DNA of 64,000 bases from Pseudomonas sp. R37(2017). GTDB lineage: Bacteria > Pseudomonadota > Gammaproteobacteria > Pseudomonadales > Pseudomonadaceae. The notes below the pieces were generated by a model that saw only the letters and a list, made by a program, of their open reading frames with translations, did no database searches and had not been told where the DNA came from. The stretch's first letter is position 1. Each line of letters begins with the position of its first letter. Below, piece after piece: positions 44,305-64,000 of the stretch. The stretch covers positions 1 through 64,000 of the forward strand of contig NZ_NEHO01000014.1 of NCBI RefSeq assembly GCF_002113375.1. The letters are read 5' to 3'. The translations under genes were made by a program, and so were the position numbers.

Positions 44305-45369
44305 TTACTCCGCTCCGGCCGGCCGTTGCTCCTTGCGCAACGGCTGGCGCATCACCGGGGCGGTCCAGACCTGGCTGCGGTCTTCGCTGGGTGGGCAGCC
44401 AAAGCGGGCTCGGTAGGTGCGGGAGAAGTGCTCCAGTGAGCCGAAGCCTGAACAGGCCGCGACCTGGGCCACGCTCAGGCGAGTCTGTTGCAGCAGGCTG
44501 TGGGCCCGGGCCAGGCGCAGGGTGAGGTAATACTTGAGCGGCGACAGGCCGGTCTGATGCTTGAACTGGCGCTCCAACTGGCGCCGCGACAGCCCGACCT
44601 GCCCGGCAATCGCCTCGCAATCGAGCGGTTCTTCCAGCGCCTGTTCCATCAACTGCACCGCTCGGCGAATCTTGTTGCCGTACAGCCCGGTGTTGGTCAG
44701 GCCGCCGTCGAGCTGGTTGTCCGCCGGCGCCCGAACCTGGCCCATCAACATATGCATGCCGATCTCCCGGGCCAGCTCGTTGTCGATGCTCTGGCCGATC
44801 CAGCCCAGCAGCATGTCCAGGGTGGTGGTCGCGCCAGCGCAGGTCAGGCGCTGGCGTTCCAGGGTGTAGAGCTGCGGCTTGGCGTTGACCCGCGGATAAC
44901 TTTCCTGGAAACCCTGCAGATTGTCCCAGTGCACGGCGGCTTCGTAGCCATCGAGCACACCGGCGGCGGCCAGCAACTCTGTGCCGGTTTCCACGCCCAT
45001 CAACACCGCGCCGAACAGCGCCTGCTTGCGCAGCCAGCTCTTGAGCGCCAGGTTGCGGCTGTGTTTGTGCACATCGAAACTGGCGATCACCAGGCACGCA
45101 TCGAACCCCTGATCGGCCTTCAAACCGTCATTGGCGACGGTGGTCAGGCCGTTGCTGGCCTGCACCGGTTCGCCGTCCAGCGACAGCAGCGACCACTGGA
45201 ACAGCTGGCGCTGGGTCAACCAGTTGGCGATGGCCAGCGGCTCCAGCACCGCGGCCAGGCCGAAGTTGGAAAACGACGGCAACAGCAACACCGCCACGCG
45301 CAACGGCGCGACATCGTCGCGCCGCCAGGTGAATCGGCTTTCCGTATTACTGCACGACTGATTGCTCAT
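44305..45369 (-). CDS. GlxA-family AraC-type transcriptional regulator (DJ-1/PfpI domain plus HTH)
   Basis: The protein has 354 residues. The N-terminal class I glutamine amidotransferase-like domain covers about 20-200 (VAVLLLPSFSNFGLAAVLEPLAIAN). The nucleophile elbow reads GVETGTELLAAAG, with Glu where the catalytic Cys would be, so it is a sensor rather than an enzyme. The AraC HTH is in the C-terminal 100 residues (CEAIAGQVGLSRRQLERQFKHQTGLSPLKYYLTLRLARA...GFGSLEHFSRTYRARFG). GbdR and CdhR, which control glycine betaine and carnitine catabolism, belong to this class. It lies 9 bp after the GMC gene in one operon. Confidence 0.9.
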   Translation of the reverse strand: MSNQSCSNTESRFTWRRDDVAPLRVAVLLLPSFSNFGLAAVLEPLAIANWLTQRQLFQWSLLSLDGEPVQASNGLTTVANDGLKADQGFDACLVIASFDVHKHSRNLALKSWLRKQALFGAVLMGVETGTELLAAAGVLDGYEAAVHWDNLQGFQESYPRVNAKPQLYTLERQRLTCAGATTTLDMLLGWIGQSIDNELAREIGMHMLMGQVRAPADNQLDGGLTNTGLYGNKIRRAVQLMEQALEEPLDCEAIAGQVGLSRRQLERQFKHQTGLSPLKYYLTLRLARAHSLLQQTRLSVAQVAACSGFGSLEHFSRTYRARFGCPPSEDRSQVWTAPVMRQPLRKEQRPAGAE

Positions 45370-51982: not shown

Positions 51983-53401
51983 ATGGCGACTCCAACACGC
52001 ACCGTACTTTCGCCGGCGGATGAGTCCAGACTGGTCAAGGCCGACAAGGCCCATCACATGCACGGCTACCACATGTTCGACGAGCACGCCGAGCAGGGCT
52101 CGCTGAACATCGTCGCTGGCGATGGCGCCTACATCTACGACACCCAGGGCAACCGTTTTCTCGATGCGGTGGGCGGCATGTGGTGCACCAACATCGGCCT
52201 GGGCCGCGAGGAAATGGCCGAAGCCATCGCCGACCAGGTGCGCCAGCTGGCCTATTCGAACCCGTTTTCCGACATGTCGAACAACATCGCCATCCAGTTG
52301 TGCGAAAAACTCGCCAGCCTGGCCCCTGGCGACCTCGACCATGTGTTCCTCACCACCGGCGGCTCCACCGCCGTGGACACCGCGTACCGGCTGATCCAGT
52401 ACTACCAGAACTGCCGTGGCAAACCCGAGAAGAAGCACATCATCGCGCGCTTCAACGCCTATCACGGCTCCACCACCCTGACCATGTCGATCGGCAACAA
52501 GGCCGCCGACCGGGTGCCGGAGTTCGATTACGCCAACCCGCTGATCCACCACGTGTCCAACCCGAACCCGTACCGGGCGCCGGAAGGCATGGACGAAGCG
52601 CAGTTCCTCGAGTTTCTGGTCAAGGAGTTCGAAGACAAGATCCTCTCGATTGGCGCGGACAAGGTCGCCGGGTTTTTCGCCGAGCCGATCATGGGCTCGG
52701 GCGGGGTGATCATTGCGCCCCAGGGTTACCTCAAGCGCATGTGGGATGTGTGCCAGCGCTACGACATTCTGTTCGTCGCCGACGAAGTGGTGACTTCCTT
52801 CGGGCGTTTGGGCAAGTTCTTTGCTTCCTATGATGTATTCGATGTGCAGCCGGACATCATCACCACCGCCAAGGGCCTGACCTCGGCCTACCTGCCGCTG
52901 GGCGCGTGCATCTTTTCCGACCGCATCTGGAAGGTCATCGCCGAGCCGGGCAAGGGGCGCTGCTTTACCCACGGGTTCACCTATAGCGGGCATCCGGTGT
53001 GCTGCACGGCGGCGCTGAAGAACATCGAAATCATCGAGCGGGAAAACCTGCTGGCCCATGTCGACACTGTGGGCGCCTATCTGGAGGAGCGCCTGGCCAC
53101 CCTGCGGGATTTGCCGCTGGTGGGGGATGTGCGCTGCCAGAAACTCATGGCCTGCGTGGAATTCGTCGCCGATAAACGCACCAAGGCGTTGTTTCCCGAC
53201 GAGATCAACATCGGCGAGAAAATTCACGTGCTGGCCCAGGCCCGGGGGTTGCTGGTGCGGCCGATCATGCACCTGAACGTGATGTCGCCACCGCTGATCC
53301 TGACGTTTGCCCAGGTCGATGAAATCGTCGAGACCCTGCGCGAGTGCATTGTCGAAGTGGCAGCGGAGCTTCAGGCCAGCGGTCAGTATGGCGGCCAATG
53401 A
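51983..53401 (+). CDS. Class III pyridoxal-phosphate aminotransferase
   Basis: The protein has 472 residues. The fold-type I motifs are FLDAVGGMWCTNIGLGREEMAEAI, TGGSTAVDTAYRLIQYY, ARFNAYHGSTTLTMSI, the Asp-based DILFVADEVVTSFGRLGKFF and the cofactor Lys297 in TTAKGLTSAYLPLGACI. It belongs to the omega-amino acid / putrescine-pyruvate aminotransferase group, which moves the terminal amino group of an amine to pyruvate or 2-oxoglutarate. It is co-directional with the binding protein and LuxR regulator. The exact amine is not readable from sequence. Confidence 0.9.
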   Translation: MATPTRTVLSPADESRLVKADKAHHMHGYHMFDEHAEQGSLNIVAGDGAYIYDTQGNRFLDAVGGMWCTNIGLGREEMAEAIADQVRQLAYSNPFSDMSNNIAIQLCEKLASLAPGDLDHVFLTTGGSTAVDTAYRLIQYYQNCRGKPEKKHIIARFNAYHGSTTLTMSIGNKAADRVPEFDYANPLIHHVSNPNPYRAPEGMDEAQFLEFLVKEFEDKILSIGADKVAGFFAEPIMGSGGVIIAPQGYLKRMWDVCQRYDILFVADEVVTSFGRLGKFFASYDVFDVQPDIITTAKGLTSAYLPLGACIFSDRIWKVIAEPGKGRCFTHGFTYSGHPVCCTAALKNIEIIERENLLAHVDTVGAYLEERLATLRDLPLVGDVRCQKLMACVEFVADKRTKALFPDEINIGEKIHVLAQARGLLVRPIMHLNVMSPPLILTFAQVDEIVETLRECIVEVAAELQASGQYGGQ

Positions 53402-53454
53402 ATTCGCCACACCGGCTGTTACCAAGGGGCTGCACTCCCGCTAGACTGCGGGGC

Positions 53455-54306
53455 ATGAGCACACCAAACGACGATACGCTGATCGCGATGCCCTTCGGGG
53501 CATTGCACAAATGGCATGGGGGGATGCGCGAGGCATTCGCCCATATCGATGAGCCTGACGCCCTGCAATACCTGGCGTCAGCGCTGGCGCAGCTGGTATC
53601 CGTCGAGTCGATGATGATCAGCCTGGAGCGCAAGGATCGCGCGCCACAGTTGCTGCATCAGCGCGGGATTGCCCAGGAGTATCAGGTCTCGATTCTCGAA
53701 CGCTATTTTTCCGGGGGCTATCTGCTCGATCCGTTCTGCCTGGCGGTGGAACAAGGGTTGGCCCAAGGCTTCTATCACCTGGAGGAAATTGCCCCGGACA
53801 ATTTCTTCGACAGTGACTACTACAAATCCTATTACCTGAAGGCGGGCTGTTCGGAAGACAGCTACTACATCGTCGACACCGGTAATGACACGAAGATTTC
53901 CGTCAGCCTCTATCAAGGTTTCGGCGGCGAATGTCTCAGCGTCGAACAATTGAACCTGTTGCGCGCCGTCGAACCGCTGGTGCGCGAATTCATCAGCGAA
54001 TTCAGCCAGCGCGGACTGCTGCGCAGTACCGGGATCGAGCGCGATAACGAGCAGGGCCTGCGCGATGATCTCAAGCATCGCGTGCAGGCGGCGTTCGAGA
54101 ACTTCGGGTGTGAGTTGCTGACCGAGCGCGAGCGGGAAGTGGCGCACATGGTCCTGCGCGGGCATTCGGTGAAATCCACGGCCAGCCAGATGAACATCTC
54201 ACCGGAAACCGTGCGCATGCACCGCAAGAACCTGTACCTGAAGCTGGAGGTGGGTTCCCAGTCGGAACTGTTTGCGCTGTTTATCGAATGGTTGCGCCGG
54301 CACTGA
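53455..54306 (+). CDS. LuxR-type transcriptional regulator
   Basis: The protein has 283 residues from the ATG at 53455 (the open frame to 53344 overlaps the aminotransferase end). The C-terminal HTH is LTEREREVAHMVLRGHSVKSTASQMNISPETVRMHRKNLYLKLEVGSQSELFALFIEWL. The N-terminal 200 residues are not a receiver and lack autoinducer-synthase-linked features; FFDSDYYKSYYLKAGCSEDSYYI is a conserved patch of this subgroup. It probably senses an amine-related metabolite and regulates the neighbouring binding-protein and aminotransferase genes. It is followed by a REPIN. Confidence 0.85.
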   Translation: MSTPNDDTLIAMPFGALHKWHGGMREAFAHIDEPDALQYLASALAQLVSVESMMISLERKDRAPQLLHQRGIAQEYQVSILERYFSGGYLLDPFCLAVEQGLAQGFYHLEEIAPDNFFDSDYYKSYYLKAGCSEDSYYIVDTGNDTKISVSLYQGFGGECLSVEQLNLLRAVEPLVREFISEFSQRGLLRSTGIERDNEQGLRDDLKHRVQAAFENFGCELLTEREREVAHMVLRGHSVKSTASQMNISPETVRMHRKNLYLKLEVGSQSELFALFIEWLRRH

Positions 54307-54328
54307 TTTTTCAGGGTTACCCATAACC

Positions 54329-54420
54329 TGTAGGAGCGAGCACGCTCGCGATTGCGGTCTGTCAGGCCCCATGATGCTGGCTGACACTCCGCCATCGCGA
54401 GCGTGCTCGCTCCTACAGGT
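54329..54420. repeat. REPIN between the convergent regulator and paaZ 3' ends
   Basis: CCTGTAGGAGCGAGCACGCTCGCGATTGCGG at the left and CGCCATCGCGAGCGTGCTCGCTCCTACAGG at the right; both arms carry the compensating AC/GT change in the loop. Confidence 0.88.
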
Positions 54421-54426
54421 GTTGCG

Positions 54427-56481
54427 TCAGTCCTCGCGTTTTACGACCAGGGTCAGAATGTCGTAGCTCGCCACCAGTTCACCCAGTTGGTTGGTCACTT
54501 CCACATCCCACGCCACCACCCCTTGCGGGATGCCCTGCGGGCTCTTCTTGCCCTGGTCGATCTTGCGTTTGCAGGTCAGGCGCGCCTGGATGGTGTCGCC
54601 GATGCCCACCGGGTTGATGAAGCGCAAGGTGTCCAGGCCATAGTTGGCCAGGACCGGGCCCGGCGCAGGCGAGACGAACAGGCCGGCCGCGGCCGACAGC
54701 ACGAAGTAGCCGTGGGCGATGCGCTTGCCGAACTGCGACTCCTTGGCCGCGATCTCGTCGAAGTGCATGTAGAAGTGGTCGCCCGACAGGCAGCCGAAGT
54801 TCACCAGGTCCGCTTCGGTGACGGTGCGACGGTGGGTCAGCAGCGACTCGCCGATCTGCAGGTCCTGGAAGTAGCGGCGGAACGGATGCACTTCGGTTTC
54901 GATGACCTTGGCGCCACGCACGTATTCGCCGGTGACCGCCGCCAGCATGGTTGGCGAACCCTGTACCGCGGCGCGTTGCAGGTAGTGTTTCACCGCACGC
55001 AGGCCGCCCAGTTCCTCACCGCCGCCGGCACGACCCGGACCGCCGTGCTTGAGTTGTGGCAGCGGCGAACCGTGGCCAGTGGATTCGCCTGCGCAGTTGC
55101 GGTCCAGTACCAGCAAGCGACCGTGCAACGCAGCCGCAACCGGAACGGCTTTGGCGGCAACGTGTGGATCCTTGGTCACCAGGCTGGCCACCAGGCTGCC
55201 TTTGCCGCGCGCGGCCAGGGCCAGCGCTTCGTCGAGATCGTCGTAGGCCATCAGGGTGCTGACCGGACCGAACGCTTCGATGTCGTGTGCGCCGCCTTCG
55301 GCGTGCGGGTCGCGGGCCTGCAACAGGGTCGGGGCGAAGAACGCACCCTTGTCGACATTTTCACCACGGGGTTCGAAACCGTCACGGCCGCCGAACAGCA
55401 TGTCGCTGCTCTGCAACAGGGCTTCCAGGCGCTCGGCCACGTCTTTCTGCTGGTCGTGGGACGCCAGCGCGCCCATGCGCACACCTTCCACCGACGGGTC
55501 GCCGACCACCACTTTGGCCAGGCGATCGCGCAGGCGGGTAGCCACTGCATCGATGTGTCTGGCCGGGACGATGGCGCGGCGGATGGCGGTGCATTTCTGC
55601 CCGGCCTTGGTGGTCATCTCCCGGGCGACTTCCTTGATGAACAGCTCGAACTCTTCGTCGTCCGGGGTCACGTCAGGGGCGAGAATCGCGCAGTTCAGCG
55701 AATCGGCCTCGGCGGTGAACGGCACCGAGTTGCGAATCAGGTTCGGGTTGACCCGCAGCTTGGCCGCAGTGTCGGCGGAACCGGTGAAGGTCACCACATC
55801 CTGGCCCTGCAGACGGTCGAGCAGGTCGCCGGTGCTACCGATGATCAGTTGCAGGCTGCCCGCTGGCAACAGGCCGGATTCGTCCATCAGGCGCACCACG
55901 GCTTCGGTCAGGTAGCTGGTGGCGCTGGCGGGTTTGACGATGCACGGCATGCCGGCGAGGAAGCTCGGGGCGAATTTTTCCAGCATGCCCCAGATCGGGA
56001 AGTTGAAGGCGTTGATGTGCACCGCCACGCCACCGCGCGGCACCAGGATATGGGTGCCGGCGAAGGTGCCCATTTTGCTCAGTTGCAGTGCCGGGCCTTC
56101 ATGGACCACGTTGCCCGACGGCAGCTCGCGGGAGCCGAGGCTGGCGTAGGTGAACAGCGTGCTGTTGCCGCCTTCGATGTCGATCCAGCTGTCGGCACGG
56201 GTGGCGCCGCTGTGGTGGGAGATCGCGTAGAGCTGTTCCTTGCGCTCGCTCAGGTACAGGGCGAGGGCCTTGAGGCGCTGGGCGCGCTGCTGGAAGTCCA
56301 GCGCCATCAGGCCGCTGACGCCCTGACGACGGCCGTGCTCGATGGCTTCGGCGAAGTCTGGACGCTCTTCGTGGGTGCGGGCGATTTCATGGCCGTCGAT
56401 GGCGCTGCGCAGGATTTGCGCGCCTTGTTGGCCGATCCAGCGGCCGGCGATGAAACTTTGCAGGGTAGGGGCGTGGGACAT
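54427..56481 (-). CDS. paaZ: PaaZ: bifunctional ring-opening hydratase / semialdehyde dehydrogenase of phenylacetate catabolism
   Basis: The protein has 684 residues from the ATG at 56481 (MSHAPTLQSFIAGRW); the frame is open to 56511. The N-terminal ALDH domain (about 1-520) includes GGVAVHINAFNFPIWGMLEKFAPSFLAGMPCIVKPAS and the catalytic Cys in TTKAGQKCTAIRRAI. The C-terminal MaoC-like hotdog domain (about 535-680) has FGCLSGDHFYMHFDEIAAKESQFGKRIAHGYFVLS. It hydrolytically opens oxepin-CoA and oxidises the semialdehyde. It is the distal gene of the paa operon, with a REP array between it and paaE. Confidence 0.94.
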   Translation of the reverse strand: MSHAPTLQSFIAGRWIGQQGAQILRSAIDGHEIARTHEERPDFAEAIEHGRRQGVSGLMALDFQQRAQRLKALALYLSERKEQLYAISHHSGATRADSWIDIEGGNSTLFTYASLGSRELPSGNVVHEGPALQLSKMGTFAGTHILVPRGGVAVHINAFNFPIWGMLEKFAPSFLAGMPCIVKPASATSYLTEAVVRLMDESGLLPAGSLQLIIGSTGDLLDRLQGQDVVTFTGSADTAAKLRVNPNLIRNSVPFTAEADSLNCAILAPDVTPDDEEFELFIKEVAREMTTKAGQKCTAIRRAIVPARHIDAVATRLRDRLAKVVVGDPSVEGVRMGALASHDQQKDVAERLEALLQSSDMLFGGRDGFEPRGENVDKGAFFAPTLLQARDPHAEGGAHDIEAFGPVSTLMAYDDLDEALALAARGKGSLVASLVTKDPHVAAKAVPVAAALHGRLLVLDRNCAGESTGHGSPLPQLKHGGPGRAGGGEELGGLRAVKHYLQRAAVQGSPTMLAAVTGEYVRGAKVIETEVHPFRRYFQDLQIGESLLTHRRTVTEADLVNFGCLSGDHFYMHFDEIAAKESQFGKRIAHGYFVLSAAAGLFVSPAPGPVLANYGLDTLRFINPVGIGDTIQARLTCKRKIDQGKKSPQGIPQGVVAWDVEVTNQLGELVASYDILTLVVKRED

Positions 56482-56520
56482 GGTATTGACTCTCAAAAAA
56501 TTTAAAGGCACCGCCGGATC

Positions 56521-56801
56521 TCTGTAGGAGCGAGCATGCTCGCGATGGAGGACCGAACACCGCGGGGTGTCAGGCAGCCAGCGTTATCGTTGACGACCCT
56601 CGCGAGGGAGGACCGAACACCGCGGGGTGTCAGGCTGCCAGCGTTATCGTTGACAACCATCGCGAGCTTGCTCGCTCCTACAGGTACGGCGTGGATCTCT
56701 GTAGGAGCGAGCATGCTCGCGATGGAGGGCAGGACACCGCGGGGTATCAGATTGCCAGCGTTATCGTTGACGACCATCGCGAGCGTGCTCGCTCCTACAG
56801 G
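56521..56801. repeat. REP array: three related spacers between paaE and paaZ
   Basis: The array starts CTGTAGGAGCGAGCATGCTCGCGATGGAGG, then contains the spacer ACCGCGGGGTGTCAGGC(A/T)GCCAGCGTTATCGTTGAC twice in tandem (about 56556 and 56626) joined by a collapsed REP (CCCTCGCGAGGGAGG), a full REPIN end at about 56690, and a third REPIN with the same spacer (about 56698-56801). The spacer family is also found, inverted, at 6055-6156. Confidence 0.87.
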
Positions 56802-56809
56802 GGGGTGAG

Positions 56810-57886
56810 TCAGAGCTGATCGAAATCCAGCACGACCTTGTCGCTGATCGGGAAGGCCTGGCACGACAGCACATAGCCGGCGGCCACTTCGTAGTCTTCC
56901 AGGGCGTGGTTGCTGTCCATTTCCACTTCGCCTTCGATGACCTTGCACTTGCAGGTCGAGCACACGCCGGCCTTGCACGAGTAAGGCAGCTCGGCGCCCT
57001 GGGCGTTGCCCGCGTCGAGGATGCTCTGGCTGTTGCGCGGCAGGTCGAAGGCCAGGGCGCGGCCGTCGCTGATGACGGTGATCTGGCTGACCGCCGAGTC
57101 CACCAGGCGGGCCGCTTCGCGAGCTTCGCGTTTTTGCTGGCTGCCGGCGGCGGCGAACAGTTCGAAGTGAATCCGCTCCGGTTGCATGCCCTTGGCCTTG
57201 AGGCTGTCGCGCACGGTCTCGGTCATTTCCTGCGGGCCGCAAATGAAGGCGGCGTCGAGGGCCTTGACGTCGAGCCAGCGGGAGAACAGTTGCTCGCACT
57301 TCTCGGCGTTGATCCGGCCGTTGTACAGGTCGACGTCCTGCTGCTCGCGGCTGAACACGAAGATCAGGTTCAGGCGTTGCAGGTAGCGATTCTTCAAATC
57401 TTCCAGCTGTTCGCGAAACAGCGCGCCGGAGCTGGAGCGGTTGCCGTACAGCAGGGTCACGCGGCTGTGGGGCTCGGTTTCCAGGGTGGTCTTGATGATC
57501 GACAGGATCGGCGTGATGCCGCTGCCGGCCGCGACGGCCAGGTAGTTGCCGTGGCGCGCCGGGTCGAGCTCGACGCTGAAATGCCCGGCTGGCGGCATCA
57601 CTTCCAGGGTGTGGCCGGCTTTCAGGTGTTCGTTGGCATAGGCAGAAAAACGCCCGCCGGCCACACGCTTGATGGCCACGCGCAGTTCGCCATCGTTGAT
57701 GCCGGTGCAGATCGAGTAAGAGCGGCGCACTTCTTCGCCGTCCATTTGGGTACGCATCACCAGGTGCTGGCCCTGGGTGAAATGAAAGCTGTCTTGCAGG
57801 TCCTGCGGAATCTCGAAGGCGATGGACACCGCGTCACGGGTCTCGGCGCGCACGTCCTTGATGGTCAGGCTGTGAAATTTGCTCAT
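56810..57886 (-). CDS. paaE: PaaE: reductase subunit of the phenylacetyl-CoA epoxidase
   Basis: The protein has 358 residues from the ATG at 57886. The FAD-binding region is RSYSICTG, the NAD-binding domain follows (YLAVAAGSGITPILSIIKTTLE, AFICGPQEMTETV), and the C-terminal plant-type 2Fe-2S domain has PYSCKAGVCSTCKCKVIEG...VLSCQAFP. It delivers electrons from NADPH to the PaaABC oxygenase. It is called PaaK in the older Pseudomonas nomenclature. Confidence 0.95.
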   Translation of the reverse strand: MSKFHSLTIKDVRAETRDAVSIAFEIPQDLQDSFHFTQGQHLVMRTQMDGEEVRRSYSICTGINDGELRVAIKRVAGGRFSAYANEHLKAGHTLEVMPPAGHFSVELDPARHGNYLAVAAGSGITPILSIIKTTLETEPHSRVTLLYGNRSSSGALFREQLEDLKNRYLQRLNLIFVFSREQQDVDLYNGRINAEKCEQLFSRWLDVKALDAAFICGPQEMTETVRDSLKAKGMQPERIHFELFAAAGSQQKREAREAARLVDSAVSQITVISDGRALAFDLPRNSQSILDAGNAQGAELPYSCKAGVCSTCKCKVIEGEVEMDSNHALEDYEVAAGYVLSCQAFPISDKVVLDFDQL

Positions 57887-57920
57887 TGTTGTTCTCCAGC
57901 TGGGACGGCCGATGCGCCGC

Positions 57921-58454
57921 TCAGATGCACTTGAAATAGTCGAACGGTTCCCGGCAATCGACGCAGCGATACAGGGCCTTGCACGCGGTGGAGCCGAACT
58001 CGCTGAGCACCTCGGTGTGGGCGCTGCCGCATTGCGGGCACAACACCTGCGGGCTTTCACCGAGCAGGCTGCGCTTGCTGGTGCTGCCCTCGGGCGGCGC
58101 AATGCCGTAGGCATGCAAGCGTTCGCGGCCGCTGTCGCTGATCCAGTCGGTGGTCCAGGCCGGGGTCAATTTGCGCTCAAGCTGCGGCGCCTTGAATCCG
58201 GCCAGTTCCAGGGCCTGGCGGATGTCGCTTTCGATCACTTCGGTGGCCGGGCAGCCGGAGTAGGTCGGCGTGACCACCACGTGAAGGTGCCCGGCCTGCC
58301 AGTCGAGGTCGCGGACGATACCGAGGTCGACCACGCTGACCACCGGCACTTCCGGGTCCATGACCTCTGCCAGAATCGCCCACGCGGCGGCCAGGTCGGT
58401 CGGTTGAGCCGGCCGGGCGCCGAGGTCGCTGGCGATCAGCTCACCAGGTTGCAT
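57921..58454 (-). CDS. paaD: PaaD: iron-sulfur/assembly-type protein of the phenylacetyl-CoA epoxidase
   Basis: The protein has 177 residues from the ATG at 58454, which overlaps the paaC end by 14 bp. The MIP18/DUF59 domain is ILAEVMDPEVPVVSVVDLGIVRDL and VVVTPTYSGCPATEVIESDI. A C-terminal four-Cys zinc ribbon (VLCPQCGS...YRCVDCREPFDYFKC) is characteristic of PaaD. It is required for epoxidase activity, probably in cluster assembly. Older Pseudomonas name PaaJ. Confidence 0.93.
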   Translation of the reverse strand: MQPGELIASDLGARPAQPTDLAAAWAILAEVMDPEVPVVSVVDLGIVRDLDWQAGHLHVVVTPTYSGCPATEVIESDIRQALELAGFKAPQLERKLTPAWTTDWISDSGRERLHAYGIAPPEGSTSKRSLLGESPQVLCPQCGSAHTEVLSEFGSTACKALYRCVDCREPFDYFKCI

Positions 58455-59202
58455 CGGGGTATGCTCGTGGCAGGAACTGCATTTCGGCCAGCAGGATGCC
58501 CAGGTGTTCGGTGTGCAGGCCCTTGCGTGCATTGAGGTAGAAATAGCTCGGTGCGGCGGGCACGGGCAGGGTGGCGCTGGTGAAGATCTGCTCGACCCTG
58601 GCCTGCCACTGCGCGGCGACGCTGGCGATGTCCGGCGTGATGCCGGCTGCGCACAGACGCTGTTCGCTGTCGTCGGCAGCGATCAGCTCGACGGTGAAGC
58701 GCCAGACCTCGGGAATCGCCGCCAGCATGCGCCGATGGCTTTCCTCGGTGCCGTCGCCCAGGCGTTCGATCCACTCGCCGGAGCGGCGCAGGTGGTAGGT
58801 CACTTCCTTCACCGCCTTGGCGGCGATCCCGGCAATGCGTTCGTCGCTGGACTGGCTCAGGCCCTGCAGCACCGGCAAATGCCAGGCGTCATAGAGGAAC
58901 TGCTTGAGCATGGTCACCGCGAAGTCGCCGTTGGGTTGCTCGACCAACAGCAGGTTGCGGTAGGCGCGCTCGTCGCGACGGAACGCCAGGTGGTCGGCAT
59001 CGCGGCCGTCGTCCAGCAGTTCGGCGGCGTATTCCAGCCAGTTGCGTGCCTGGCCTACCAGGTCGAGGCCGACGTTCATCAGCGCCAGCTCTTCTTCCAG
59101 TGCCGGGGCCTTGCCGCACCACTGACACAGGCGCTGGCCCTGGATCAGGGCGCTGTCGCCGAGGCGCAACAGGTATTCGATCAGATCAGTCTTGTTGTCC
59201 AT
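58441..59202 (-). CDS. paaC: PaaC: structural subunit of the phenylacetyl-CoA epoxidase
   Basis: The protein has 253 residues from the ATG at 59202 (MDNKTDLIEYLLRLGDSALI). It is a ferritin-like four-helix protein related to PaaA but lacking its metal ligands. Conserved stretches include LMNVGLDLVGQARNWLEYAAEL, NLLLVEQPNGDFAVTMLKQFLYDAWHLPVLQGL and EVTYHLRRSGEWIERLGDGTEES. It stabilises PaaA and helps bind substrate. It starts 8 bp after the paaB stop. Confidence 0.94.
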   Translation of the reverse strand: MDNKTDLIEYLLRLGDSALIQGQRLCQWCGKAPALEEELALMNVGLDLVGQARNWLEYAAELLDDGRDADHLAFRRDERAYRNLLLVEQPNGDFAVTMLKQFLYDAWHLPVLQGLSQSSDERIAGIAAKAVKEVTYHLRRSGEWIERLGDGTEESHRRMLAAIPEVWRFTVELIAADDSEQRLCAAGITPDIASVAAQWQARVEQIFTSATLPVPAAPSYFYLNARKGLHTEHLGILLAEMQFLPRAYPDATW

Positions 59203-59210
59203 GGTCGACC

Positions 59211-59492
59211 TCACATGTGCCCGACTTCGGCCGGCAGCTCGTAGAAGCTGGCGTGGCGGTAAACCTTGTCGTCCGATGGATCGAACAGCGGGTCCTTTTC
59301 ATCCGGCGACGAAGCGGTGATCAGCGCCGAAGGCACGACCCACAGGCTGACGCCTTCGCTGCGACGGGTGTAGAGCTCGCGGGCGTTCTCGATGGCCATG
59401 GTGGTATCAGCGGCATGCACGCTGCCGACATGCTTGTGGTTCAGACCGTGCTTGCTGCGCACGAAGACTTCGAAGAGGGTCCACTCGGACAT
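59211..59492 (-). CDS. paaB: PaaB: small subunit of the phenylacetyl-CoA epoxidase
   Basis: The protein has 93 residues, the standard family length. The signature is WTLFEVFVRSKHGLNHKHVGSVHAADTTMAIENARELYTRRSEGVSLWVVPS. It bridges PaaAC heterodimers in the active complex. It lies 28 bp after paaA and 8 bp before paaC. Confidence 0.95.
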   Translation of the reverse strand: MSEWTLFEVFVRSKHGLNHKHVGSVHAADTTMAIENARELYTRRSEGVSLWVVPSALITASSPDEKDPLFDPSDDKVYRHASFYELPAEVGHM

Positions 59493-59520
59493 TTCAATTA
59501 CTCCACATCAGGTGGCCGGA

Positions 59521-60510
59521 TCAGGCGGCGTTCTTGTTTTGTTTTTTGCGGGCGTGGGCGACGGCGGCTTCACGAACCCAGGCACCGTCTTCAATCGCCT
59601 TGCGGCGGGTGGCGACGCGTTCGGTGTTGCACGGGCCGTTGCCCTTGAGCACTTCGTAGAATTCGTTCCACTGGATTTCGCCGAAGTCGTAGTGGCCGCG
59701 CTCGGCGTTCCACTTCAGGTCCGGGTCGGGGCAGGTGCAGCCCAACAGCTCCAGTTGCGGGATGGTCTGGTCGATGAAGCGCTGGCGCAGTTCGTCGTTG
59801 CTCTGGCGCTTGATTTTCCAGGCCATGGATTGCGCACTGTTCGGCGAGTGTTCGTCGCTCGGGCCGAACATCATCAGCGACGGCCACCACAGGCGATTGA
59901 TAGCGTCCTGGACCATGTCCTTTTGCGCCTGAGTACCGTGACGCATCATGGTCAGGAGGATTTCGTAGCCCTGGCGCTGGTGGAAACTCTCTTCCTTGCA
60001 GATGCGGATCATCGCCCGGGAGTAAGGGCCGTAGGAGGTGCGCTGCAGCACCACCTGATTGACGATCGCCGCGCCATCCACCAGCCAGCCCACCGCGCCC
60101 ATGTCGGCCCAGTTCAGGGTCGGGTAGTTGAAGATGCTCGAATACTTGGCCTTGCCGCTGTGCAACCTGGCGATCTCTTCATCGCGGTCGGCGCCCAGGG
60201 TTTCCATGGCGCTGTACAGGTACAGACCGTGACCGGCCTCGTCCTGGATCTTGGCCATCAATTGCAGTTTGCGTTTGAGCGACGGCGCACGGGTGACCCA
60301 GTTGCCTTCGGGCAGCATGCCGACGATTTCGGAGTGGGCGTGCTGGGAAATCTGCCGGATCAGGGTTTGCCGATAAGCATCTGGCATCCAATTCTTGGCT
60401 TCTATCTTGATTTCTGAATCGATTTTTTCCTGGAAAGCGCGTTCCTGATCGGACATCTCCGACAGGTCCTTGATGCGCTTGACGCCTGTTTCTACTAGCT
60501 GTGCGTACAT
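59521..60510 (-). CDS. paaA: PaaA: catalytic di-iron subunit of the phenylacetyl-CoA epoxidase
   Basis: The protein has 329 residues from the ATG at 60510 (MYAQLVETG); the open frame to 60687 crosses the operator region. Ferritin-like di-iron motifs are [24 protein letters not shown] (ExxxH type) and [18 protein letters not shown] (ExxxxH type). It inserts one oxygen atom into the ring of phenylacetyl-CoA, forming the 1,2-epoxide. It is the first gene of paaABCDE; no paaX/paaR regulator or paaK ligase gene lies in the window. Confidence 0.96.
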
Positions 60511-60557
60511 GTTGGGTCTCCCGCCTTGAATCTGTTCTGAGGCATGGAGAACTTTAT

Positions 60558-60620
60558 AAGCGATACAGAAATTAATATCAAACATAAAATGACGTGTCGT
60601 ATTTGTTTTTTGTATCGCTT
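60558..60620. promoter_or_regulatory. 10-bp inverted repeat in the paaA promoter region
   Basis: AAGCGATACA (60558-60567) and TGTATCGCTT (60611-60620) are perfect inverted copies 53 bp apart (start to start), flanking an AT-rich stretch that would hold the minus-strand promoter, about 50 bp before paaA. Spacing near five helical turns suits a looping or doubly bound repressor such as PaaX or PaaR (inference). Confidence 0.55.
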
Positions 60621-60678
60621 TGGATGACGGGGCGCTGCGTTCCAATCTCCGGCCGGATAAACGTCTGCACCGAATCTT

Positions 60679-60692
60679 CGCCGGCAAGCCGG
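60679..60692. repeat. Short P. putida-like REP (GCCGGC-AA-GCCGGC)
   Basis: TCGCCGGCAAGCCGGCGCCTGCAGG is unlike the other repeats of the window but resembles the P. putida-type REP core. It is a single copy. Confidence 0.5.
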
Positions 60693-60803
60693 CGCCTGCA
60701 GGATGGGAGTCGCTGCGGGTGCCGTCTTCCCGGGTATCGGTAACGAGTCAGTTAAAGGCGACTTGATCGCCATGCAGGTTTGGGTGAAGGCCGATGGTCG
60801 GTA

Positions 60804-60927
60804 TGTGCAAGAAGTTGCGCAGTTGTTTTCTGAAAAAACACCCTATGACGTCGCGCCAGGCCTCGGGGTTCAGGGGTTGCAGCCAAGTGCGCAAGAAGTT
60901 GCGCAGTGCTGCGCAAGAAGTTGCGCA
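60804..60927. promoter_or_regulatory. Three copies of an 18-bp palindrome upstream of hcp (candidate activator sites)
   Basis: TGCGCAA-GAAG-TTGCGCA occurs at 60888-60905 and 60910-60927, and with one change (TGTGCAA) at 60804-60821. A half-site TGCGCAA lies at 60944-60950. Distances between copies are 84 and 22 bp, close to 8 and 2 helical turns. They lie 85-210 bp upstream of the candidate sigma-54 promoter. Apart from these sites, the REP and the paa inverted repeat, nothing else is seen in 60511-61096. Confidence 0.6.
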
Positions 60928-61011
60928 CTGCAGGCCTGTTTTCTGCGCAAAAAATGAAGCTCTGTTGCGTTGTCGATGCTAAGTAATTGTTATTTAAAGA
61001 CATTTAATGTC

Positions 61012-61026
61012 TGGCACGAACCTTGA
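61012..61026 (+). promoter_or_regulatory. Near-consensus sigma-54 promoter of hcp
   Basis: TGGCACG-AACC-TTGA matches the TGGCACG-N4-TTGC consensus except the last base (A for C). It lies about 70-85 bp before the hcp ATG. Orphan hcp/vgrG genes of T6SS are often sigma-54 dependent. Confidence 0.5.
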
Positions 61027-61096
61027 CTGATGCCGGCTCAGGCTTGGCTGGCCGTTCAGCCTTACCAGTCCTCACGTTTCAGCAAGGAGAGCATCA

Positions 61097-61615
61097 ATGG
61101 CTACACCCGCTTACATGTCCATCACCGGTACCAAACAGGGCCTGATCACCGCCGGTGCCTTCACCACGGATTCGGTGGGCAATACCTACCAGGAAGGTCA
61201 TGAAGACCAGGTCATGGTTCAAGGTTTCCAGCACGAAGTGATCATCCCGCGTGACCCGCAATCGGGTCAGCCTACTGGTCAACGTGTGCATAAACCCGTG
61301 GTCATCACCAAGGTGTTCGACAAGGCTTCACCCCTGCTGCAGGCAGCTTTGACTACCGGTGAGACCCTCACAGAGGTCAAGATCCAGTGGTACCGCACCT
61401 CGTCCACCGGCACTCAGGAGCACTACTACACCACCACCCTGGAAGACGCGATCATCGTCGACATGAAGGATTACATGCACAACTGTCAGGACCCATCGAA
61501 CGCGCATTTCACTCATCTGGAGGACGTGCACTTCAGCTATCGAAAAATCACCTGGACCCATGAAGTGTGCGGCACTTCGGGTTCCGATGACTGGCGTAAA
61601 CCGGTCGCCGGCTAA
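61097..61615 (+). CDS. hcp: Hcp: T6SS inner-tube protein, HcpA/B/C (H2-T6SS) type
   Basis: The protein has 172 residues, the length of P. aeruginosa HcpA/B/C and nearly collinear with them: MATPAYMSITGTKQGLITAG, SVGNTYQEGHEDQVMVQGF, IPRDPQSGQPTGQRVHKPVVITKVFDKASPLL and C-terminal EVCGTSGSDDWR. Hexameric rings stack into the tube that is fired by the contractile sheath and carry small effectors. AAGGAGAGCATCA precedes the ATG. No T6SS core genes are in view, so this is an auxiliary hcp-vgrG module. Confidence 0.96.
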   Translation: MATPAYMSITGTKQGLITAGAFTTDSVGNTYQEGHEDQVMVQGFQHEVIIPRDPQSGQPTGQRVHKPVVITKVFDKASPLLQAALTTGETLTEVKIQWYRTSSTGTQEHYYTTTLEDAIIVDMKDYMHNCQDPSNAHFTHLEDVHFSYRKITWTHEVCGTSGSDDWRKPVAG

Positions 61616-61623
61616 ACCTCACT

Positions 61624-61651
61624 GCATGGGACGGCATTGTGCCGCCCATGC
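61624..61651 (+). terminator. Hairpin between hcp and vgrG (partial terminator or processing site)
   Basis: GCATGGG-a-CGGC, loop ATTGT, GCCG-CCCATGC makes an 11-bp stem with one bulged A, 9 bp after the hcp stop. It is followed only by a weak T-containing stretch, so it may attenuate rather than end transcription, giving more Hcp than VgrG. Confidence 0.6.
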
Positions 61652-61692
61652 GCTTGTTTGCTCCTTCTGATACCCGACACAAGGACAAGCCC

Positions 61693-63711
61693 ATGTTCGC
61701 ACCGGCCAATGTTGCGCATTTCGCCTTACTGATCCCCACGGTACGCAACGATTTCAAGGTACTGGCCTTCGAGGGCAGCGAGGCCATCAACCAGCTGTAC
61801 GCAATAAAGGTCGAGCTGGTCAGCGAGTCTCCTGATTTCGAGCTGGAAAGCCTGCTCAGCCAACCTGCGTATCTTCAGTTTGGCTTCAACGGCGAAGGCA
61901 TCCATGGCCGCATCGAGGACGTTGGCGTGGGTGAAGCGGGTAAACGCCTGACTCGTTACCATCTCACCCTGGTGCCGGCGCTGCACTATCTGCAGTTCAG
62001 CCATAACCGGCGGATTTTCCAGAACCTGACCGTGCCGCAGATCGTGGCTCAAGTGCTCAAGGGGCATGGCATTCTGGCGGATGCCTTCACCTTCAATGTC
62101 GGCACCAGTGCGGAGCGTGAATACTGCACTCAATACGATGAGAGCGATTATCAACTGATCCAGAGGTTGTGCAGCGAAGATGGGATTGCATGGCACTTTC
62201 AACATGGCCCTGATGGTCACCATCTGGTGTTCACCGAAGATCAGACCTGGTTTCCCATACTGGGTGAAACACCGTACTTGCAGGGCTCCGGCATGGTGGC
62301 GGAACACCCGGTCGTCAGCCAGTTCTCCGTGCGGTGCAGTACCCGGACCAGCACGACCACGCGTCGTGACCATGACTTCAAGCGACCAAACCGCTTGCTG
62401 GAACATCAGTCCACCGCCGATTTCCACCCCGAGCTCGAAGACTACGGCTATCCGGGGCGGTTCAGGACAGAAGAACTCGGCAAACAGCTGGCCTGCCAGG
62501 CATTGGAGCGCCACCGCAGCGACTACCGGTTGGCGGCGGGCAATAGTGACCAGCCCACCCTGCGCAGCGGCCATTTTCTCAAACTGACCGAGCATTCGCG
62601 TCAACCCTACAACGATTTGTGGCTGCTGCTTCGCGTGACACATGAGGGCAAGCAGCCAGGGATGCTTGAAGAGACGGTCAACAACGACGTCAAGCCCGAG
62701 GACGGGTTTACCCAGGGTTATCGCAACCGCTTCAGCGCGATACCCTGGGACGTGATCTACCGTCCTCCGCTGGTCACCCGCAACTGCGTGCTGGTCAGTC
62801 AGACCGCCCGTGTCACCGGCCCGTCCGCGGAAGAAATCCACTGCGATGAGCATGGGCGGGTCAGGGTCGCCTTCCATTGGGATCGCGCCGAACAAAACGG
62901 CGACAAGACCAGTTGTTGGCTGCGGGTCTCGTCGAGCTGGGCCGGAGAAGGGTTCGGCGCGGTGACCATTCCGCGCATCGGCATGGAAGTGGTGGTGACC
63001 TTTCTGGAGGGCAATCCCGACGATCCACTGATCACCGGGTGCGTTCCCAACACGGTCAATTCCGTGCCGTACCCGCTGCCGGCGAATAAAACCAGAACCG
63101 TGCTGCGCAGCCACAGTTCGCCCGCCAATGGCGGCTACAACGAACTGTCGATCGAAGACCGGGCAGGGCGGGAGCTGATCTACCTGCGCGCCCAGCGTGA
63201 CATGGAGCAGAAGGTCGAAAACGACAGTCGGCTGGAGGTGGGTAACGTACGTCGGGAACTCATCAAGGGTAATAGCGTCGCGGTGCTCGAGGCGGAAGAT
63301 CAGCGCACCGTCACCGCTGACCGCAAGGTCGAGCTAAAGGCCAATGATTACTTGCAGGTCGCCAACAGCAGCCACACCCATATCGGTCAAGCGCTGGTGG
63401 TCGAAGCGGGCCAGCAGGTGCACCTCAAGGCCGGGGCCAACCTGATTCTCGATGCAGGGGTCAGCATCACCTTGAAAGCTGCGGGGCAGCACATTGTGAT
63501 CGGGCCGGGCGGCATCTTCAGTAGCACCGAGATTCAAATCGGTGGCGCGCCCGTGACCGGCATCGAGGCCTTATGGGCGCGACCTGCCGGGGTGACGGCG
63601 CTTCTGGCGCCCTTGATGCCCGAGGCGCAGCGCAACGCCTTGATGGCCAAAAAGCCGATCTGTGCCATTTGTGAAGCGTCCGAACAGCAGGGTGGACCCG
63701 CCAATGCTTGA
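61693..63711 (+). CDS. vgrG: VgrG: T6SS spike protein
   Basis: The protein has 672 residues from the ATG at 61693 (AAGGACAAGCCC upstream; the frame opens at 61639). The gp27-like part (about 1-390) has YHLTLVPALHYLQFSHNRRIFQNLTVPQIVAQVLKGHGI and QRLCSEDGIAWHF. The gp5-like OB fold is DEHGRVRVAFHWDR and VSSSWAGEGFGAVTIPRIGMEVVVTFLEGNPDDPLITG. The beta-helix follows (VENDSRLEVGNVRRELIKGN...AGANLILDAGVSITLKA). After the spike a short tail (ICAICEASEQQGG) could be the adaptor-binding end. No enzymatic extension is present. Confidence 0.95.
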   Translation: MFAPANVAHFALLIPTVRNDFKVLAFEGSEAINQLYAIKVELVSESPDFELESLLSQPAYLQFGFNGEGIHGRIEDVGVGEAGKRLTRYHLTLVPALHYLQFSHNRRIFQNLTVPQIVAQVLKGHGILADAFTFNVGTSAEREYCTQYDESDYQLIQRLCSEDGIAWHFQHGPDGHHLVFTEDQTWFPILGETPYLQGSGMVAEHPVVSQFSVRCSTRTSTTTRRDHDFKRPNRLLEHQSTADFHPELEDYGYPGRFRTEELGKQLACQALERHRSDYRLAAGNSDQPTLRSGHFLKLTEHSRQPYNDLWLLLRVTHEGKQPGMLEETVNNDVKPEDGFTQGYRNRFSAIPWDVIYRPPLVTRNCVLVSQTARVTGPSAEEIHCDEHGRVRVAFHWDRAEQNGDKTSCWLRVSSSWAGEGFGAVTIPRIGMEVVVTFLEGNPDDPLITGCVPNTVNSVPYPLPANKTRTVLRSHSSPANGGYNELSIEDRAGRELIYLRAQRDMEQKVENDSRLEVGNVRRELIKGNSVAVLEAEDQRTVTADRKVELKANDYLQVANSSHTHIGQALVVEAGQQVHLKAGANLILDAGVSITLKAAGQHIVIGPGGIFSSTEIQIGGAPVTGIEALWARPAGVTALLAPLMPEAQRNALMAKKPICAICEASEQQGGPANA

Positions 63712-64000
63712 GTTGCCGCCATTACCGGCTGATTTGCCCTGGGCGGTGCCCGCCTACCTGCTGCTGGACGGAGTCAGCGTACCGGACCTGCTGCCACAGC
63801 TGCGCCGCTGGGGGCGTCCGATCTATTGCCTGTATCTGAATACGCGCTGGCATGAACTGTCCGACATTTCACCTTGTCTGGTTGCGCTCGAGGGCAGCGG
63901 TGATCCGTTGCTGACCTGGTTTGGCGAACACGCAGCCCTCGAATGGGGCTACCTGCTGTTCAGCGCGGCCAATGTGCAAACGCTGCTGGAGCATTGGCGC
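63704..64000 (+). CDS. DUF4123-domain T6SS adaptor (truncated by window end)
   Basis: The ATG at 63704 overlaps the vgrG stop by 8 bases, and 99 codons are visible with no stop. The start LPWAVPAYLLLDGVSVPDLLPQLRRWG and the WGYLLFSAANVQTLLEHWR stretch fit the DUF4123 (Tap/TEC/VasW) chaperones that load effectors onto VgrG. The reading frame agrees with the GC-rich codon use of its neighbours. The cognate effector and immunity genes would be expected downstream, outside the window. Confidence 0.85.
   Translation, partial: MLELPPLPADLPWAVPAYLLLDGVSVPDLLPQLRRWGRPIYCLYLNTRWHELSDISPCLVALEGSGDPLLTWFGEHAALEWGYLLFSAANVQTLLEHWR

Follow-up and report, generated by a model that had tools for sequence, protein, structure and literature searches.

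The DNA considered here, referred to as the window, is the first 64,000 nucleotides of contig NZ_NEHO01000014.1 from Pseudomonas sp. R37(2017) (C6:1-64000 of draft genome G000, 6.03 Mb in 52 contigs), and the region of interest runs from position 60804 to hcp, the gene for the tube protein of the type VI secretion system (T6SS). This region is probably a sigma-54 promoter carrying a three-site enhancer for dimers of Sfa, an activator of the Sfa2/VasH type, the enhancer being phase-locked to a promoter bent by integration host factor (IHF); a probability of roughly 0.8 is attached to this reading. Binding by Sfa, assembly of its hexamer on the sites, bending by IHF, and activation rather than repression are all inferred from the DNA sequence.

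Dyad sites and promoter geometry

Three 18-bp dyads occupy 60804-60927 (Table 1), with start-to-start spacings of 84 bp (distal to central) and 22 bp (central to proximal), as the initial annotation had reported, save that the distal copy carries one mismatch. The perfect form, TGCGCAA-N4-TTGCGCA, occurs in the whole draft genome solely at 60888 and 60910. When up to three mismatches were allowed, the 18-mer gave four matches in the window against 0.10 expected, with none of 100 shuffles attaining four; the match outside the array is a 3-mismatch dyad at 44334. At up to two mismatches, dyads were found at 153 places in the whole genome compared with 24 for a reversed control pattern, and these were not counted as sites. 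The TGGCACG-N4-TTGA element previously placed at 61012 upstream of hcp is present with its TGGCACG complete, and reads GG-N10-GA where a sigma-54 element would have GG at -24, GC at -12, and ten bases between. Two further details did not hold up. The half-site TGCGCAA is indeed present at 60944, yet the same 7-mer has 16 + strand occurrences in the window, and the 60944 position is unconserved in relatives. The supposed joint duplication of palindrome and TTTTCTG block is out of register, TTTTCTG lying at 60826 and 60939, 5 and 12 nt past the dyad ends, and shows no conservation in the relatives displayed.

The arrangement was then compared across the genus. Places matching hcp were found in 124 of the 149 genomes of the genus sample; among the matches listed, 109 promoters were selected (29 loci and a further 80 that were fetched), the places left out being chiefly less similar in sequence identity or close to the end of a contig. 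Together with 80 named loci, the plasmid locus L048, and the window, 191 loci were tried, from which three without a recognised start (L156, L244, L253) and five with fewer than 245 bases upstream were excluded; the remaining 183 promoters were thinned to 144 sharing less than 80% identity. Counting a slot as filled by a dyad with at most two mismatches, and measuring from the -24 element, the distal slot (-208) was filled in 101 promoters, the central (-125) in 99, and the proximal (-103) in 97, all three being filled in 74; in total, 325 dyads were observed against 0.04 in the shuffled set. In these 74 canonical promoters the mean starts are -208.1, -125.4, and -103.4 (standard deviation (SD) 0.7-0.9), the central-proximal spacing is 22 bp without exception (74/74), and the distal-central spacing is 82 bp (29 promoters), 83 bp (42), or 84 bp (3). 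Pairwise likeness is 97% for the sites as against 35% and 33% for the two linkers, the sequence of which appears nearly unrelated while its length is kept. The distance from -24 to the ATG is looser, at 70-87 bp (SD 3.0) in the canonical promoters and 69-92 bp among 96 promoters.

Enhancer sites of sigma-54 activators usually work at varied distances from the promoter. Dyads expected some 80-200 bp before -24 on the same helical face are here found at -208, -125, and -103, spaced by 82-84 and 22 bp. The initial annotation had proposed a classic sigma-54 enhancer layout before hcp and had named a search for the 18-mer at other hcp loci as a check: dyads were recovered in shared slots in diverged Pseudomonas promoters, the genus-wide geometry to -24 being conserved despite diverged linkers. 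The enhancer-type arrangement is upheld, but the epithet “classic” understates it, positions varying by about 1 bp in canonical promoters.

A candidate IHF site in the window (Table 1), overlooked by the earlier work, falls within this geometry. In a separate, earlier thinning (147 of 175 promoters), the best match to the IHF consensus within the 85 bp before -24 had at most one mismatch in 77/147 promoters compared with about 18 in shuffles, and in 66/147 such matches were located at -33/-32.

That the dyads should be dispersed-repeat or cruciform DNA devoid of regulatory role is scarcely credible. In many relatives the central and proximal sites do together make up a near 44-bp inverted repeat, and perfect dyads occur in 92 of the 149 genus genomes (reversed control: one). 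Thirty perfect-dyad loci, one per genome, were listed irrespective of gene context. Twenty hold a single dyad, which stands in a slot before the element in six (in L072 without Hcp following) and away from any canonical promoter in 14, with other centres. Against such a repeat, nine of the ten loci with two or three perfect dyads carry a dyad in each of the three slots ahead of a sigma-54 element, the tenth (L071) being an array split by an insert; sites are kept while their flanks diverge, and the perfect dyads of the window genome lie at this array only. Arrays appear to mark promoters, and single dyads with other centres often do not; the earlier proviso that the 18-mer might prove to be a dispersed repeat off promoters is rejected for arrays.

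Beyond the genus, the dyad-pair pattern was found class-wide in 2 of 369 genomes, namely the window's own and one in the same family. A class-wide Hcp search returned 31 of the 369, of which nine loci beyond the window's own genome were inspected. L364, from another genus of the family, bears a canonical array. At L369, from the same order, GGCAA-N4-TTGCC dyads occur three times at spacings of 20-21 bp, together with a -24/-12-like element and a stretch that by eye matches the IHF consensus; no activator was found within 120 kb. No clear array was seen at L366, L370, L371, or L372, while L367 (33 bases upstream only) and L365 and L368 (without a recognised start) gave no promoter view. Elsewhere, an array precedes a PAAR gene (L069), and a rearranged one precedes a plasmid hcp-vgrG-DUF4123-lipase module (L048). 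Searches with 60800-61100 gave no match in phage records and one among viral contigs, where a prophage-like contig ends in an hcp promoter.

Sfa distribution and recognition-helix co-variation

The activator had been stated to be absent from the window, which is correct, yet it is encoded further along the same cluster (Table 1): a protein with a sigma-54 AAA+ domain and a Fis-type helix-turn-helix, as expected of an Sfa2/VasH regulon, its gene starting 19.4 kb past the hcp start. Its N-terminal GAF domain gave a match below cut-off only (E 0.0015). Identity as a NorR orthologue was ruled out, the NCBIfam NorR model scoring 334.2 bits against a cut-off of 476. Of the 149 genomes, 87 encode a full-length Sfa orthologue (57-100% identity, 550 bits or more); other activators drop to about 283 bits, apart from G139, where a single partial match scores 463 bits. 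Two or more perfect dyads occur in 49 of the 87 genomes having Sfa versus 5 of the 62 without, and at least two sites are found in 78 of 97 genus-set promoters having Sfa versus 3 of 9 without (Fisher p 0.005, ancestry ignored).

In two small clades, sequence differences in the sites accompany differences in the Sfa recognition helix, at different positions of the dyad. The helix reads LPRRT in 38 of 61 aligned proteins, and dyads in LPRRT genomes have an AA or TT centre in 96/113 cases and AT in 3/113 (51 promoters of 52 listed). In three genomes (G061 and those of L201 and L202) the helix reads MSRRALH (MSRRALHYRL); their dyads keep TGCGCAA, with AT at the centre in eight of nine and GT in the ninth. 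Over all 183 promoters AT centres number 13 in 412 dyads, 8 of the 13 being in the three MSRRALH promoters. The helix-centre association gives a Fisher value of 1.5e-9 with the 51 LPRRT promoters and 4e-11 on a smaller, hand-picked list, both of which overstate the evidence, since either variant represents a single three-genome clade and the promoters of the LPRRT genomes share ancestry. The second clade, with helix LPLRT, comprises G039 (the same as G529 by coordinates), G125, and G528. No dyad with two or fewer mismatches is found in its promoters, and the distal site reads ACGGCAA-N4 in place of TGCGCAA, GAAG being kept in L257; LPRRT relatives with the same Hcp start type (G112, G010, G124) retain TGCGCAA at both the central and the proximal slot. 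A VARRT/LARRT group has weaker dyads at the same places, with a TA centre in 13 of 14 central sites.

Departures from the array and the wider locus

Sites have moved by about 9-12 bp toward the gene in six promoters (L089, L147, L215, L246, L254, L256); in L197 the distal site alone has moved, by about -12, and in L207 and the plasmid L048 the sites stand at -137, -115, and -83. All nine shifted promoters lie near whole helical turns, and the shifts amount to a handful of events that may not all be independent. Relaxed selection may explain those of L215, L254, L207, and L256 because their genomes have no Sfa orthologue. Extra matches offset by about 12 bp relative to a better dyad (L185, L186, L267, and the second distal match of L089) were dismissed as overlap artefacts of self-similar half-sites, and L174 and L272 have single weak dyads.

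Several observations weigh against an enhancer for Sfa. The -12 dinucleotide of the window is GA rather than GC, a feature shared by 92 of the 144 hcp promoters (GT in 32, GC in 10). Of these 144, slots are unfilled at two mismatches or fewer in 43 (distal), 45 (central), and 47 (proximal), and 13 promoters have no such dyad at all. In L203, L239, L262, L263, and L264 a weaker central site is spaced 21 bp from the proximal site instead of 22, and in G046 (L071, L117) several hundred inserted bases, some of them read as N, separate the array from the hcp sigma-54 promoter. The LPRRT promoters L147, L173, and L176 each hold one AT-centred dyad, the genome of L147 (G018) having a second Sfa with LARRT, and in the LPLRT clade the distal site alone is readable. 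The association of Sfa with arrays is confounded by shared T6SS gene presence and by ancestry. Lastly, arrays exist in genomes lacking an Sfa orthologue, namely G087 (L091) and G137 (L108) and, among the named genomes, G520 (L199, L215, L234), G532 (L207), and G533 (L254); among 18 genomes checked TssC is absent from G087, G063, G532, and G535, so that in G087 and G532 the array is present without both.

These intact arrays, along with the 22 strong sigma-54-activator domains encoded in the window genome, would suit a different explanation, in which some other regulator, be it a repressor or a further sigma-54 activator, occupies the dyads and Sfa works independently of them. This is considered rather unlikely, given that the site letters track the Sfa helix in two separate clades, that Sfa is encoded in the same cluster, and that multiple sites are enriched in promoters of genomes having it (the Fisher comparison above, ancestry ignored).

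Table 1. Features of the hcp promoter region and the associated genes (window coordinates unless prefixed C6).
Feature	Position	Strand	Remarks
Distal dyad, TGTGCAA-GAAG-TTGCGCA (TGTGCAAGAAGTTGCGCA)	60804..60821	.	One mismatch; starts 208 bp before the -24 element
Central dyad, TGCGCAA-GAAG-TTGCGCA (TGCGCAAGAAGTTGCGCA)	60888..60905	.	Starts 124 bp before the -24 element
Proximal dyad, TGCGCAA-GAAG-TTGCGCA (TGCGCAAGAAGTTGCGCA)	60910..60927	.	Starts 102 bp before the -24 element
IHF-like site, TAAGTAATTGTTA	60980..60992	.	One mismatch (counted by eye) to YAANNNNTTGATW; -32 from the -24 element
Sigma-54-type -24/-12 element, TGGCACGAACCTTGAC	61012..61027	+	10/11 consensus positions; -12 is GA
Predicted hairpin of the 5' untranslated region (UTR)	61041..61066	+	Window fold; just past the expected start, ~61037 (inferred from the -12 position)
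hcp (tssD), T6SS tube protein	61097..61615	+	First gene past the promoter; 3he1 match; likely ribosome-binding AAGGAG at 61084
vgrG, spike protein	61693..63711	+	Start codon picked by eye within frame 61639-63711
DUF4123 gene	63662..64000	+	Cut by the window end; frame runs on to 64576
sfa, Sfa2/VasH-type activator, 508 aa	C6:80537-82063	+	PF00158 and PF02954 (sigma-54 AAA+ domain, Fis-type helix-turn-helix); between the ClpV and FHA genes

Downstream of the promoter, the scanned frames run in the order hcp, vgrG, DUF4123, a VasX_N protein, two similar 420-aa frames (the one scanned being DUF6708), TssA, TssC, ClpV, the 508-aa activator, and an FHA protein, all on the + strand. The genome's single TssC match lies at C6:73388-74287; with hcp at the cluster start, this makes hcp the head of the only TssC cluster of the genome. 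The description of the locus as an auxiliary T6SS module has accordingly to be abandoned, the hcp-vgrG-DUF4123-effector stretch running into the TssA, TssC, ClpV, Sfa, and FHA genes. Upstream of tssA (C6:70300-71090) no second array was found, and only -24/-12 elements with three to four mismatches. A second hcp, 42% identical, is located at C1:608006, with neither array nor sigma-54 element in the 1 kb examined; the sigma-54 activator near it (C1:600252) was rejected as the regulator of the array, since it adjoins a phenylalanine-hydroxylase-like gene and is, from this context, presumably PhhR-like. Window positions 53344-60510, upstream of hcp, hold a PaaA_PaaC-family gene and a LuxR-type regulator and show no sign of T6SS-cluster membership.

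Three other elements of the promoter region may be recorded. The hcp 5' UTR hairpin has a mean z of -2.65 relative to base-shuffled controls, with z < -1 in 95% of 136 promoters; RNAalifold returned no consensus structure from a loose alignment of 108 hcp UTRs, though single folds are strong, and an Rfam scan of 60500-61200 gave three matches, all far under gathering scores. A DnaA-box-like TTWTNCACA occurs between the distal and central sites (about -190 to -126) in 31 of the 144 promoters (for example L209, L199, and L120) against 0.6 in shuffles, 25 of the 31 containing TGTGGATAA; none was seen in the window's own distal-central stretch. A second inverted repeat, CTRCAGGCC-N-GGCCTGYAG, lies at about -160 to -130 (for example in L121 and L103), with arms of at least eight in 10 of the 144 promoters against 0.4 in shuffles, and is degenerate in the window (60855-60886).

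Proposed mechanism and comparison with known systems

In the mechanism envisaged, each 18-bp dyad would take one Sfa dimer through its Fis-type helix-turn-helix, and the three dimers would supply the six subunits of an active AAA+ ring. The central and proximal sites would lie on one face of the DNA, two turns apart, with the distal site eight turns further upstream, and IHF would bend the DNA at -33/-32 such that the ring reaches the RNA polymerase-sigma54 complex at a fixed distance and phase. Promoter opening would then lead to transcription of hcp-vgrG, perhaps of the whole cluster. A bolder extension, regarded as possible though doubtful, is a rigid enhanceosome, in contrast to the loose enhancer placement of sigma-54 activators, in which three Sfa dimers, IHF, and RNA polymerase are held in fixed positions, the array serving as a portable address with dialects of Sfa helix and site; the girth of an AAA+ ring is close to the span of about 105 bp from the distal to the proximal site, and that the DNA may be wrapped once round the hexamer is speculation. 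If the extension were true, orphan hcp, PAAR, and plasmid modules with the same array would work in any host whose Sfa matches, and the co-evolving dialects would decide which modules a host can use. With a defined site, its near-fixed geometry, and a code linking helix to site, the regulon could be predicted from sequence, and a defined Sfa site would help to explain how scattered effector modules join one weapon. The natural one-turn shifts would offer a test of how strictly enhancer placement matters.

The published record, represented here by excerpts of the papers cited, is divided on the direction of control. In P. aeruginosa PA14, RpoN chromatin immunoprecipitation (ChIP) peaks were described before the hcp2ABC islands, Sfa2 being needed, and inverted repeats of unassigned role were mentioned (PMC8855297). 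Two reports run counter to the proposed enhancer: the Sfa2 ChIP in PA14 gave a single, poorly enriched peak 2132 bp upstream (PMC8855297), and Sana et al. in 2013 described Sfa2-dependent repression of the H2-T6SS by RpoN, with no RpoN consensus before the H2 operon (PMC3804575). The latter would fit an Sfa that binds the dyads but represses or fine-tunes hcp. Such a role is very unlikely for the present promoter, where the -24/-12 element stands at a near-fixed distance from the sites, and the excerpted part of PMC8855297 reports the opposite by RNA sequencing and ChIP sequencing.

As regards Vibrio fluvialis, IHF control of the hcp promoters and VasH-dependent hcp expression were reported, the VasH binding sequence being given as not yet determined in 2018 (PMC5963220). 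In the parts of PMC8855297 and PMC5963220 consulted, the Sfa2/VasH target sequence is left open, and a candidate for it is defined here. No such dyad site appears in the excerpts of PMC10482370, PMC9993120, and PMC3162934. Text searches of the open-licence literature (supplementary figures outside their scope) did not find the 18-mer in print, and its 16-letter core is absent from the 20 listed of 45 open-licence papers with 18-mer fragments, those 20 being unrelated by title.

Among the closest known systems are the RpoN/Sfa2-controlled H2-T6SS and hcp2ABC-vgrG islands of P. aeruginosa, with which the present locus shares the type of activator (Sfa 71% identical in strain PA7), the same Hcp family (3he1), and a -24/-12 element before hcp. 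Imperfect dyads occupy two of the slots in PA7 (L193), TGTGCAA-CTTC-TTGCATA at -126 (central, three mismatches) and TGTGCAA-GAAG-TTGCACA at -104 (proximal, two mismatches), with none at three or fewer mismatches in the distal slot. The difference lies in the distant Sfa2 ChIP peak of that system, whereas the present analysis defines sites, geometry, and co-variation. The Vibrio VasH/IHF hcp-vgrG loci (PMC5963220) are alike in having a sigma-54 element and an IHF site, YAANNNNTTGATW, before hcp, as far as the excerpt describes them; they differ in that the VasH sequence was not yet determined there. Finally, the three NorR sites of E. coli norVW were presented as scaffolding for a higher-order oligomer that is most probably a hexamer (PMC2941729, in excerpt), which parallels the three sites present in the window and in 74 of the 144 promoters. 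The regulator there is a different one, a near-fixed distance to the promoter over a genus is seen here, and the comparison is one of site number.
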